In this document: piece after piece, positions 13,972 through 38,680 of the stretch
How the letters are laid out: each line of letters begins with the position of its first letter
How positions within the stretch are numbered: position 1 is the stretch's first letter
NCBI GenBank assembly: GCA_947497295.1
Contig: CANMFU010000004.1
Location: 89,916-153,915 of the forward strand
DNA from: an uncultured Roseovarius sp.
GTDB lineage: Bacteria > Pseudomonadota > Alphaproteobacteria > Rhodobacterales > Rhodobacteraceae
Direction: 5' to 3'
DNA: 64,000 bases
Made by a program: the position numbers and the translations under genes
Notes under the pieces: generated by a model
Seen by the model: the letters and a program-made list of their open reading frames with translations, nothing else
Databases searched by the model: none
What the model was told of the DNA's origin: nothing

Positions 13972-14080
13972 GCCTCAAAGCCCCATGTATCAGGGTCGCG
14001 GGCATGAGATGACGAGAGGATACCGGCAGCCGGAATCGCCCCGACACCGACACACCCCGTCCGGTTTCGTCCTTTTTGTG

Positions 14081-14255
14081 CTGGCAGGTCTCCCGGCTTG
14101 CGGATTCAGGGCGGCTGGCCCTATGGCTGATCTGCCTTCCCGGCGGTTGCCAGTGGCGGTGATCGGCCTTTCCGTTCACGGTCGCGGGGGCGGCTGTACT
14201 TGACCGCGACGACACGCGGCTGCACATTCCCTTTTCACCTGCCGAGGCAGGCACC
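14081..14255 (-). promoter_or_regulatory. Cobalamin riboswitch of the main cob operon
   Basis: On the minus strand the element reads GGTGCCTGCC near 14255, then AAGGGAA, a long P-arm, CCCCCGCGACCGTGAACGG, GCCACTGG, CGGGAAGG and finally CAAGCCGGGAGACCTGCCAG near 14081. This order of conserved boxes defines a cobalamin riboswitch. It lies 110 bp upstream of the DUF1636-cobW-cobN operon, so operon expression should fall when adenosylcobalamin is abundant. A minus-strand open frame across this element is fortuitous. Confidence 0.94.
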
Positions 14256-14312
14256 AACACAAGCCGCAGCTTTCGCCCAAAGCCCACAGTCTGTCAAGCC
14301 GAAGGAAACCCC

Positions 14313-33917: not shown

Positions 33918-33962
33918 GTTGCGGGAGTAGGATTTGAACCTACGACCTTCAGGTTATGAGCC
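33918..33962 (-). other. tRNA-Met 3' half: prophage attachment scar
   Basis: On the minus strand the segment starts inside the anticodon stem-loop (GGCTCATAACC, anticodon CAU). It continues through the variable loop, a full T-arm (GTAGGTTCAAATCCTAC) and the acceptor 3' strand TCCCGCA, and ends at the tRNA 3' end. The 5' half (acceptor 5' strand and D-arm) is absent; the sequence beyond 33962 is unrelated. This is the product expected when a phage integrates into a tRNA 3' end and an intact tRNA is rebuilt at the other junction, which must lie beyond the right edge. Confidence 0.85.
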
Positions 33963-34323
33963 GAAATCACCGTGATTCCAATAGCTTTGTGATAACAGTG
34001 ACTTATGCGATAAGCGTTTGATCTAACGGATATATCCACTCCGCAATCCCCCACATTCAAATGCACTCAGCCGGAAAATCAGCTTGAAATACGTAGTCGC
34101 AGGTTGATGTGGCGTTGATGTTGCCGGTCCACTGCCCTGACAAATCATGATCGCAATCGGCCCAAAGCAGGGCTTAAAGCTTCGCGCAGAGTAGGTCCGA
34201 GACAGCCCACCTCTGGTATGCTTTCCATCTTTTCAGCAAATATTCACAGGCAGGCTTGAATACAAGGAGTATGCTCACCAAATAGTGATTGCCCGCGGGA
34301 ATTGGCCCACGGGTTTGGCCGTT

Positions 34324-34452
34324 GAACTTGTCAACCTCTTTATGGTGACCTGGCAGCACGATGCCGAACAGCATCGCCGCGACCAGAGCCAGACTGAACG
34401 AGACACTGAGCATAGCTCGGACCTCCACGGTTACATTATACCACCTCGCGTT
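34324..34452 (-). other. neo: Neo-type never-ending ORF repeat unit (129 nt, 43 codons)
   Basis: Read antisense to the ncRNA, this 129-nt unit has no stop in one frame and stops in the other two. It contains TATAAT (34440-34435), then GGAGGT and, seven bases later, an ATG at 34413, followed by MLSVSFSLALVAAMLFGIVL. CGTT occurs at 34320-34323 and 34449-34452, exactly 129 nt apart, and offers a short homology for template jumping. Head-to-tail copies would put TTGACA (34334-34329) 17 bp before TATAAT and keep the frame open indefinitely. As in published DRT2, the gene would exist only in concatemeric cDNA. The exact borders and the transcribed strand are inferred. Confidence 0.75.
34329..34440 (-). 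promoter_or_regulatory. Split promoter reassembled by cDNA concatenation
   Basis: A perfect minus-strand -10 (TATAAT, 34440-34435) has no -35 upstream in the chromosome; the hexamer 17 bp away is ACGGGC. A perfect TTGACA lies at 34334-34329, downstream of the -10. In a 129-nt tandem repeat the spacing from TTGACA to the next TATAAT is exactly 17 bp. Confidence 0.75.
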
Positions 34453-34600
34453 TCGAGGCCCGTGTCTGCGAGACGTTCGGAAAAGAGACGCTGAACGTAT
34501 ACGCTGACAGAAGGTGGCGTGCGTTCGGGGGACGCCCGGCCTTAAAAACCGGAGCCCAGGGTCAGGGCCAGTCCTCCGAACTCTGCGACAAGGAGGATTG

Positions 34601-35896
34601 ATGTCGCTCGATTGGTTTAAGTCCAGAGGCTACCGTCATTTCGATCTGCCCGTAGGCGAGAAATTCGCCAGCAAGGTAATGGACTCGAACTTCGTGCTTC
34701 AGCACTCGTTTCTCCCGCTGCTGCACTATACGAAGTCCGAGAAGCGCTACAAGAAGTGCCCGAAGACTGGGGCGCGGACGATTACCTCAAAGGACCGCCC
34801 TATCAAATACGCATCGCATCGGGATGCCTGCATACTTTCGTTCTACGCCAGCGAGATGAATAAGTTGCTGGACGCGCACTATGAGGCCGCAGATCTGTCC
34901 GACAGCGTGCTGGCCTATCGTGCTCTCGGACGCGGCAACTACGATTTCTCAGCTGAGGTGCTTGCCTTCGCCAAGAGCCATGCCCCGGTCACAATACTGG
35001 CATTCGACGTCAGCAGCTTCTTCGACAATCTTGACCACACGCTTCTGAAGCGCCGTTTGAAGTCCGTGCTTGGCGTTCCGTCGCTCCCTAGGCATTGGAT
35101 GCGCGTGTTTCGAGCAATTACAGCCTTCCATTACGTTGATTTGGAAGAACTGAAAGCGAACCCCACCCTCTCCCCCAGACTGAAGAAGAACAGTCGGGAC
35201 CGGATCGCCAGTGTCGAGGAACTGAAAGCCAACGGCATCAAGTTCCACCCGAACCCGGAACTGGCAAAAGGGCATCGGCGTGGCATCCCTCAGGGCACCC
35301 CCATCAGCGCGGCGGCGTCGAACCTATACATGATTGATTTCGACGCCGCTGCGCACGCTTATTGCGACAGCATCGGCGCGCTGTATCGTAGGTATTCGGA
35401 TGACATTTTGGTGATCTGCGAACCTGCTCACGCGATAGCGGCCGAGGCCAAGATCATGGACCTCATCAAAGCGGAGAAGTTGGAGATTTCGCCGCACAAA
35501 ACTGAAAAGACCGAGTTCACAGGCACAGGCGCTGTTCTGTCCGAGAAAGCGGCGCAATACCTCGGCTTCGCGCTTCACGAAGCGGGACCTGCTATTAGGG
35601 AAAGCTCTCTTGCACGCCAATGGCGGAAGATGCGAAGAGCGATGCGCCGGACCCGTAAGATTGCAGAGCGCAACATCGCATCTGGAAAGTCGACCAAGGC
35701 ACACACCAAGCGTCTGTATCGCCGATTTACCCACCTGAAGGTGCGCGACGACGAAGGTGTTCGGATCGTTCGAAACTTTTCGTCCTATGGACGACGCAGC
35801 GCTGCCGCATTTGGTGAAGACGAGAAAATCTCCAAGCAAATAAAGCGGTTTGAAAGTGCAGCGCTTCGCGAGATCGAGAAGCTCAAGAAGCTGTGA
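34601..35896 (+). CDS. drt2: DRT2 (UG2)-type antiphage reverse transcriptase
   Basis: The 431-residue protein has reverse transcriptase motifs in order: ILAFDVSSFFDNLDH (catalytic Asp136), RRGIPQGTPISAAASNLYM (residues 227-244) and YRRYSDDIL with the catalytic pair at 267-268. AAQYLGFAL and an arginine/lysine-rich thumb-like C-terminus follow. There is no maturase, HNH or retron signature. The N-terminus (WFKSRGYRHFD, PIKYASHRDACILSFY) and the C-terminal SSLARQWRKMRR fit DRT2. DRT2 reverse-transcribes its upstream ncRNA into tandem cDNA; phage infection leads to expression of a growth-arresting repeat protein. The ATG has AGGAGG upstream. The location near the prophage attachment site suits a cargo defence gene. 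Confidence 0.85.
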   Translation: MSLDWFKSRGYRHFDLPVGEKFASKVMDSNFVLQHSFLPLLHYTKSEKRYKKCPKTGARTITSKDRPIKYASHRDACILSFYASEMNKLLDAHYEAADLSDSVLAYRALGRGNYDFSAEVLAFAKSHAPVTILAFDVSSFFDNLDHTLLKRRLKSVLGVPSLPRHWMRVFRAITAFHYVDLEELKANPTLSPRLKKNSRDRIASVEELKANGIKFHPNPELAKGHRRGIPQGTPISAAASNLYMIDFDAAAHAYCDSIGALYRRYSDDILVICEPAHAIAAEAKIMDLIKAEKLEISPHKTEKTEFTGTGAVLSEKAAQYLGFALHEAGPAIRESSLARQWRKMRRAMRRTRKIAERNIASGKSTKAHTKRLYRRFTHLKVRDDEGVRIVRNFSSYGRRSAAAFGEDEKISKQIKRFESAALREIEKLKKL

Positions 35897-36917: not shown

Positions 36918-38183
36918 TCAGGCCGACTTTTTGTCGCCGTGATCGTCCGCGTCGTGAACCAGCTTCGGTTTCGGTCGGAAAGCGCTGGCCACGGCATCGA
37001 CCCCCGCGCGCAGGGGCGACTCCATCAGATGCGCATAGCGCAGCGTGGTCTGCGTCTGGCTGTGGCCCAGCAGCTTGCCGATCATTTCCAGTGACGCCCC
37101 GCCGCTGACCAGCAAGGAGGCAAATGTGTGGCGCAGGTCGTGGATGCGCACGTCCTGCAGCGCGCATTGCTTCTGGATCTGCGCCCAGAACCGCCGCACC
37201 TCCTGCACCGGCTGGCCGGGCGTATCGCCGGGGAACAGCCACGGTGTCCCGTTAGGCACCGACAGCTGGCGCTGGCGCACGATGGCGGCGGTCTCGTCCG
37301 AGATCGGCACGCGATGCACACGGCGCTGTTTTGTCATCATCGGTGGTTTCGACCAGCTCAGATGTTCAAGGTTGAACTGTTCGAACCGCGCCTGCCGCAC
37401 CTCGCCCAGCCGCGCGCCGGTCAGCATGCACATGCGGATGATGTCGGCAGCTCGCCGGTCTTCTGCCGCATCCAGTGCGGCGCCGAGGCTGGTGATTTCC
37501 TCCTTGGACAGGAACCGCTCGCGGGGCGTCTCGATGCGGCGATGAAAGCGCTGGGCGGGGTTGTCGGTGCACCAGCCCCATTCCACCGCCAGCGTGAACA
37601 TCTTGCGCAACACCTCTCCCATCCGGTTGGCGCGCACCGGCGTTGGCTTCGCGGGCTGCAGCTTTCGCGCCCGGTTGTTGGGTTTGTCCTTGTGCGGACG
37701 CGCCCGGCCCTCAGCGATCTTGTTCAGCAGCTTGTCGACGTCGGTCGAGGTGATTTCCGTCACAAGTTTTCGGCCCCAGACCGGGGCCACCAGCTTGGTC
37801 AGAGAGGCGCGCTGGTCGGCGGCATTGCGTTCTGCCAGCTTTGGCAGGTGCTGGGCGCAGTAGCGCTCGATCAGGTCGTTCACACGCGGCGCTTCGCGCA
37901 GCGCCCCGCGCTGGGCCAATGGGTCCGCCCCGGCATCGATCTCGCGGCGGATTTCCTTGGCCCGCTCGCGTGCCGCTGACACCGGCCATTCCGGCCAGCG
38001 CCCGAAGGTCATCCGGCGCTGCCGCCCGGCGTGGCGATAGTCGATCGTGAAAGCCCGCCCGCCGCCGCGATAGATGCAGGCAGCGAACCCGCGCACGTCT
38101 GTGTCGAAGATCTGGTAATCGCGCCCAACGATGGGCACGGCCTCGCGGAGTACTTTCTCGGTCAGCTTTGTGCGCTCGGCCAT
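36918..38183 (-). CDS. int: Tyrosine-recombinase phage integrase
   Basis: The 421-residue protein has the P4-type integrase layout: an N-terminal DUF4102-like arm-binding domain (residues 1-90, with DTDVRGFAACIYRGGGRAF), a SAM-like core-binding domain, and a catalytic domain. The catalytic residues are Arg258 (TGARLGEV), His348 and Arg351 (HDLRHT), His374 (LLGHS) and the nucleophile Tyr383 (TLRYAH). The start at 38183 follows AGGAC and gives the usual size. It lies about 3 kb from the tRNA-Met scar and presumably catalysed that integration. Confidence 0.93.
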   Translation of the reverse strand: MAERTKLTEKVLREAVPIVGRDYQIFDTDVRGFAACIYRGGGRAFTIDYRHAGRQRRMTFGRWPEWPVSAARERAKEIRREIDAGADPLAQRGALREAPRVNDLIERYCAQHLPKLAERNAADQRASLTKLVAPVWGRKLVTEITSTDVDKLLNKIAEGRARPHKDKPNNRARKLQPAKPTPVRANRMGEVLRKMFTLAVEWGWCTDNPAQRFHRRIETPRERFLSKEEITSLGAALDAAEDRRAADIIRMCMLTGARLGEVRQARFEQFNLEHLSWSKPPMMTKQRRVHRVPISDETAAIVRQRQLSVPNGTPWLFPGDTPGQPVQEVRRFWAQIQKQCALQDVRIHDLRHTFASLLVSGGASLEMIGKLLGHSQTQTTLRYAHLMESPLRAGVDAVASAFRPKPKLVHDADDHGDKKSA

Positions 38184-38269
38184 GTGTCCTGTCCTTCTTG
38201 CATCCGACATGAGGCGTGGTTTCGCCGTACTATCAAGGCAAGCATGAACGGCAGGTGGCGGGGAGGCGC

Positions 38270-38680
38270 GGGGTGGCGGAAAGGTCGCCCCCTTTGTGCC
38301 ACCCCTTGTTTTACTGGCGATCCGGCGCTGGGCAGGGCAGTTGTCGGTCGGAGGCACCGCGATCACAGATCCCTGGCGCGCGCAAAACGATGCCAAAAGA
38401 CCCGGAATCGATGCACCGGAACACGCCGATTTTGTAAATCTCCAACAAATTCAATGGGTGGCAGGGGTGCCGTGCCGGGTGCCACCCCCTCTTTGCCCGC
38501 CAATGCCGGTAAACCCTCTGTAAATCCGGCTGTTCGCGGGTGTTTGCGGCTTTGGCCTGCGTTTCGCATCCCCCACGACCACGGGCCGCGCGGCGCAGCT
38601 TCACCCCACCTGACCCGTAAAACTCAAGAACACCCAATAAAACAAGGGGTGGCACAAAGGTCGCCGCCTTTCCGCCACCC
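38270..38680. repeat. Three GGGTGGC-type dyads and a long inverted repeat
   Basis: Three hairpin-forming dyads share GGGTGGC and GCCACCC arms: 38270-38305, 38456-38487 and 38646-38680. The outer two also share inner AAAGG/CCTTT arms and outward extensions of the type CCTTGTTTTAYTGG. They therefore form an imperfect inverted repeat of about 45 bp per arm. The roughly 590-bp region between the integrase start and the HTH gene holds no protein gene. Roles as binding sites for the flanking HTH protein, a control region or an origin are all possible. Confidence 0.75.

Follow-up and report, generated by a model that had tools for sequence, protein, structure and literature searches.

Can a gene lie antisense in a non-coding RNA and become readable only once a reverse transcriptase has copied it in tandem? 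The question is raised by 129 nt of DNA from an uncultured Roseovarius sp., studied within a window of 64,000 nt (GCA_947497295.1, contig CANMFU010000004.1, 89,916-153,915 of the forward strand), which is the whole stretch that was analysed and from whose first letter positions are counted. A sequence-only reading had proposed here a never-ending gene (neo) following the logic of the DRT2 systems. Our analysis points to a phage-defence locus of DRT2 type: antisense in its RNA lies a permuted 43-codon neo repeat, which the reverse transcriptase (RT) likely copies into tandem DNA, with a GTT repeat predicted to guide the jumps; we put the probability of this reading at about 0.88.

The permuted unit and its neighbouring genes

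On the minus strand of 34324-34452, TATAAT (34440-34435), the ribosome-binding site GGAGGT (34426-34421), the start codon ATG (34413-34411, seven bases further on) and TTGACA (34334-34329) stand in permuted order, all as the sequence-only reading had named them. The repeat unit, NARWYNVTVEVRAMLSVSFSLALVAAMLFGIVLPGHHKEVDKF, comprises 129 nt and 43 codons. In the chromosomal arrangement the minus strand lacks a -35 ahead of TATAAT, whereas tandem copies with a 129-nt period place TTGACA 17 bp before TATAAT, a split promoter with 12 out of 12 consensus letters. The length is divisible by three, and the three frames hold 3, 9, and 0 stops across three tandem units, the open frame being that of the ATG. 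The letters CGTT, at 34320-34323 and 34449-34452, lie 129 apart, also as had been claimed. When the window was scanned blind to frame and length, the 129-nt unit ranked first with no tie.

The neighbouring gene (34601-35896, plus strand) encodes 431 aa with YSDD at residues 265-268, a form of the YxDD active site that was invariant across 17 aligned RTs. The protein matched the PADLOC models PDLC03757 Drt2 (3.5e-130) and PDLC02173 (3.3e-98), obtained 388.7 bits with the NCBIfam model Drt2 NF041746 (curated cut-off 390), and was only distantly similar to the Klebsiella DRT2 RT of the solved structures in the PDB (phmmer, E about 1e-59). Judged by the PADLOC matches, the gene is a DRT2 (UG2) reverse transcriptase, and its position next door thus suggests that the neo gene at 34324-34452 belongs to the type already described. 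When 57 RTs were placed in a tree, built with a quick method and rooted at the midpoint, the window and 32 other rows of the GTT clade described below (33/57) were on one side of a branch with an SH-aLRT of 100. In a genome of the same genus (G058, locus L003) the DRT2 gene is broken, and an inner stretch matching RT residues about 118-198 is on the other strand from the sequence on either side of it. At L059 the matched RT is not readable through in one frame, and the neo unit is intact.

A tyrosine integrase gene (36921-38270, minus strand) followed by helix-turn-helix genes is found nearby, and the locus may therefore sit on an integrated element. Near this region, 33920-34050 resembles part of a tRNA, which we take to be a possible attachment site; ARAGORN found no tRNA in the window. 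Two cobalamin riboswitches are also present (658-837 and 14066-14273, minus strand).

Length, frame and encoded repeat among the relatives

A protein search gave 810 matches at E ≤1e-30, and of 131 relatives from a genome scan 80 were kept. The window, two loci on rhizobial plasmids (L012 and L013), and 43 of these 80 make up a set of 46 loci from one alphaproteobacterial DRT2 clade, aligned upstream of the RT; L026 was dropped as its upstream DNA is missing. The 36 distant loci of the 80 were used in the shuffle-controlled and the frame-blind scans only.

Measured between the aligned border repeats, with the alignment anchors picked on the CGTT of the window, the template length was divisible by three in 46/46 loci, among which seven lengths occurred (66, 114, 120, 123, 126, 129, and 132). 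The rows are related to one another, so that these counts represent far fewer than 46 independent events. The ATG frame was open in all 46, and the codons upstream of the ATG, readable only across the junction, were likewise stop-free in every locus. Two downstream intervals of the same RNA served as a control: their lengths left residues 0, 1, and 2 in 6, 28, and 12 loci and in 5, 18, and 23 loci, respectively. As all three residues occur there, being in register is a property of the template and does not stem from the way the loci were aligned.

In 43/46 loci the split promoter with its 17-bp spacing stood at the corresponding site, and it was weak in three Sphingomonas loci (L050, L051, and L053). 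The -35 was TTGACA in 30/46 and TTGACG in 10/46, while the -10 was TATAAT in 23, TATAGT in 7, TATATT in 4, and variant in the others. Most loci had a ribosome-binding site of GGAGG type, and the start codon was ATG in 44/46, GTG in one, and missing in one. At L037 (5776-5841) the unit is half the usual length, 66 nt or 22 codons, with a 17-bp split promoter and one open frame, without a ribosome-binding site. The sequence-only reading had staked its case on homologues preserving length modulo three, promoter, and frame, and the alignment bore it out, as did the PADLOC assignment of the RT to Drt2.

The clade was also scanned without the guidance of the alignment. With 20 dinucleotide shuffles of each of 81 related loci, any match was obtained in 116 of 1620 shuffles and none scored above 21; real loci of the clade mostly scored 20-25 in the unguided scan, a run to which the window itself did not belong. 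The shuffle-controlled scan, which required frame and length, arrived at the same period as the alignment in 37/45 loci of the clade. A scan blind to both covered 90 loci, or 64 after near copies were removed. Among these non-redundant loci, units with a score of at least 13 were divisible by three in 30/34 cases and open as well in 28/34; below 13, 17/30 were divisible by three and 12/30 were open. The same scan gave a 12/12 split promoter on a Nitratidesulfovibrio vulgaris plasmid (L104) at a period of 145, which is not divisible by three and is either an exception or a sign of another jump point. In a candidate phylum, Nomurabacteria (L067), it indicated a 135-nt unit with a TGTT repeat and an open frame.

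Over 19 nearest-neighbour pairs of 129-nt units, substitutions numbered 96, 80, and 95 by codon position, with no excess at the third, and thus give no visible sign that Neo is conserved in its exact sequence. Mean hydropathy was positive in 37 out of 39 distinct units, a 19-residue hydrophobic window of at least 1.6 was present in 32/39, and in 34/39 the hydrophobicity exceeded that of controls in which the nucleotides of the middle part were shuffled without creating stops (p<0.05), the five units not above their shuffled controls being L037, L041, L043, L046, and L047. As far as the translated units tell, hydrophobicity is what is kept in Neo, and the protein may have a membrane role. No Pfam family scored over its cut-off for the Neo unit. 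The published Neo is described as hydrophobic and predicted to be helical (PMC11100668, PMC12039810).

RNA structure, primer helix and jump repeat

The predicted DRT2 ncRNA (34289-34588, plus strand) is structured and sits directly upstream of the RT gene, which starts thirteen bases past the predicted 3' end. Its start near 34289 was placed at the onset of conservation, and a predicted promoter -35, TTGAAT (34256-34261, plus strand), coincides with a block of CTTGA/ATTGC type that the alignment shows to be conserved ahead of the RNA. The structure was studied in 30 aligned relatives (328 columns), a hand-picked diverse subset of the 46 with L037 and L044 among those omitted. RNAalifold gave 54 consensus pairs, 36 of them with at least one double change.

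A 5' hairpin resembling SL1 (34292-34313, plus strand) was paired in 191/240 cells over the 30 rows. The template hairpin, whose 5' arm (34317-34321) pairs with 34428-34432, was paired in 94.0% of cells with 18 double-change cells; 0/500 shuffles scored as high on three of five measures, and 444 and 450 of 500 did so on the other two. Another helix joins the template 3' end, UCGCG (34446-34450), a predicted primer-binding site, to the predicted ncRNA 3' end, UGCGA (34584-34588), the predicted RNA primer. This helix was paired in 96.0% of cells with 16 double-change cells, and one of its pairs was doubly changed in 15 of the 30 rows (CG 15, UA 8, AU 6, GC 1). On three of five measures 0/500 shuffles were as high, and the pair- and type-counting measures did not stand out (138 and 182 of 500 shuffles). 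The covariation between RNA 3' end and template 3' end supports self-priming. The Klebsiella primer is attached to the 3' end of its RNA, with the DNA primer carried at A280, a position homologous to 34584-34588 (PMC12039810), so this segment would be the natural primer. As the published description is understood, the Klebsiella helix comprises about two bases, while the one found here has 5 positions and overlaps the repeat.

A 6-bp stem (34308-34313 with 34459-34464) had been proposed to close the template. Its letters are present, but the role did not stand: 62.9% of cells pair (112/180), no double changes occur, and 453/500 shuffles were as high among the 30 aligned relatives. The segment 34308-34313 is better accounted for as the 3' arm of the 5' hairpin, for which 191/240 cells are paired.

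The 3' scaffold (34517-34586, plus strand) matched the Rfam family RF03017, RT-13, with 81.4 bits (gathering 69.1). The 67 positions of the model all belong to the 3' scaffold, leaving template, jump repeat, and primer outside. It scored above its cut-off in 6 out of 7 GTT-clade loci tried, missing L049. RF03016, RT-12, gave no match in the window and matched two of three ACA-type gammaproteobacterial DRT2 loci (L058 and L064). On these matches, RT-13 corresponds to the 3' scaffold of the GTT-type DRT2 RNA and RT-12 to that of the ACA type. Under the name 'RT-13', the literature yielded unrelated papers only. RF03017 was found in 3/385 genomes of the class and 5/394 of the family, with the window's own genome counted in. 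Of six RF03017 loci tried, three could be scored, all with 129-nt open units; the other three were skipped, as a one-strand pattern gave no scaffold. Two of the scored loci were >99% like loci already used, so this held-out test adds little. Among viral contigs, 56 pattern matches included none coding a relative; three phage records gave a distant match, and an ACA-type RNA had no match in E. coli genomes.

In published DRT2 systems, ACA flanks the template on both sides (PMC11100668, PMC12039810), and in Klebsiella defence was abolished once this homology was broken (PMC11100668). In the window both borders are CGTT (plus strand), with the core GTT at 34321-34323 and 34450-34452. Among the 46 loci, GTT was present at both ends in 42 and CGTT in 29, while ACA at both ends, the mark of the Klebsiella type, was found in 0/46. 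Four loci (L033, L037, L038, and L040) lack the full GTT pair and have only GT in common between the ends. By analogy with the Klebsiella mutants, the GTT repeat would set the jump in this clade. The DRT2 logic of the sequence-only reading held, while the change from ACA to GTT and the pairing between RNA 3' end and template had escaped it.

Thirteen loci outside the clade were anchored by hand: seven gammaproteobacterial loci with ACA (L057, L058, and L061-L065), three of Dyella, and three of a second alphaproteobacterial group. In 13/13 the length was a multiple of three and a single frame was open. The Dyella loci L066, L071, and L073 have 129-nt units, an 18-bp spacer, and the apparent repeats ATTAC, ATTGCA, and TTG, and in the first two the copies differ jointly, ATTAC/ATTAC in L066 and ATTGCA/ATTGCA in L071. 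With these hand-set anchors, other repeats seem to be in use in two further clades. In the second alphaproteobacterial group (L074, L089, and L091) the repeats are GTT and the units 108, 102, and 105 nt; the promoter is weak, with 7-8 of 12 letters and a weak -35, and the RNA 3' ends ACCTA/ACCTG seem paired with the template ends TAGGT/CAGGT in two of the three. The Bacteroidota loci (L068-L070, L072, L075-L088, L090, L092, and L093) gave no convincing split promoter of the sigma-70 type that was scanned for. The RNAs upstream of these same DRT2 genes are well conserved.

Proposed mechanism, rival explanations and significance

The locus resembles the Klebsiella pneumoniae DRT2 (PMC11100668, PMC12039810), as described there, in the RT family, the upstream ncRNA, the template between short direct repeats, the split -35 and -10 rejoined at 17 bp and followed by a ribosome-binding site and ATG, and the stop-free frame of a length divisible by three encoding a hydrophobic repeat. 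It differs in having GTT/CGTT instead of ACA and 129 nt instead of 120. In the proposed course of events, the RNA 3' end (34584-34588) would anneal to the template 3' end (34446-34450) and prime synthesis, and copying would proceed to GTT copy 1 (34321-34323). There the nascent end, AAC, would be released and anneal to GTT copy 2 (34450-34452), with 129 nt gained per lap. Second-strand synthesis would rebuild TTGACA-17-TATAAT at each junction, and translation from the ATG at 34413 would run through all laps without a stop, producing a repetitive hydrophobic protein that would halt the cell before the phage completes. For this locus, we infer the cDNA concatemers, phage trigger, transcription, translation, toxicity, and defence from the Klebsiella DRT2.

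Could the minus-strand frame instead belong to a conventional small antisense gene that is transcribed directly from the chromosome and translated once? Gene finders annotate it so in the rhizobial plasmids, where small 'hypothetical proteins' start at the neo ATG (WSG77506.1, L012 3677-3805; AYD04577.1, L013 3671-3805), and in the window a linear ORF (34174-34428) continues beyond the template. Such a gene is extremely improbable in view of the chromosomal TATAAT without a -35, the junction-only codons that are stop-free in all 46 loci, and the preserved length modulo three, for which a linear gene would have no use. The two annotated proteins appear to be linear readings of the first lap of neo. 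The RT might also make tandem-repeat DNA that acts as DNA, like the homopolymer of DRT9 or the repeats of DRT10, with the open frame being incidental. DRT9, DRT10, and telomerase share the repetitive reverse transcription of an RNA template, although template and RT group differ and their products are not described as coding in the accounts consulted; some Class 2 DRTs have been published whose repeat products do not code for protein (PMC12632851), and the lack of a third-position excess in the units would agree with this. On the other hand, divergent loci have retained a length divisible by three, the open frame with its ATG and ribosome-binding site, and the hydrophobic pattern, which makes a product acting as DNA very improbable.

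A more modest objection accepts a plain DRT2 and takes the change from ACA to GTT as meaningless drift, with the RNA structure alone setting the jump. The four exceptional loci that share only GT would fit, as would the well-kept template hairpin and primer helix. Nevertheless, we consider drift unlikely, since GTT stands at both ends in 42/46 loci, two Dyella loci changed at both copies together, and breaking the ACA homology abolished the Klebsiella defence (PMC11100668). A neo repeat copied in tandem with GTT-guided jumps thus remains our preferred reading. A wider rule can be proposed tentatively, at slightly less than even odds: that the jump is addressed by a direct repeat free in its letters, whose copies change jointly, and that the RNA 3' end is a self-primer co-evolving with the template end. 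The repeats on which it draws are ACA in gammaproteobacteria, GTT in this clade, ATTRC in Dyella, and GTT with another promoter in the second alphaproteobacterial clade.

Earlier publications already describe the mechanism and the hidden promoter as well as units of 129 nt, several 129-nt templates being among the 42 homologues of Wilkinson et al. (PMC12039810). In the main texts searched, no alphaproteobacterial or non-ACA neo was found, though one may be in print in supplements or in the journal article by Tang et al.; the covariation of the primer helix and the connection with RT-13 were likewise not found in those main texts. In DRT2 clades of greater divergence, Tang et al. reported more difficulty in annotating Neo and suggested other mechanisms (PMC11100668).

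As a clade with another jump repeat keeps frame, promoter, and start, the mechanism reaches beyond the motif in which it was first described, and the template-jump model becomes a prediction about any matched repeat. The primer helix provides evolutionary evidence for self-priming by the RNA 3' end, and a reading is offered for the Rfam family RT-13. If the wider rule is true, neo would be readable in divergent DRT2 clades where annotation was reported to be hard, and in this clade Neo would consist of membrane-inserting segments repeated in tandem.
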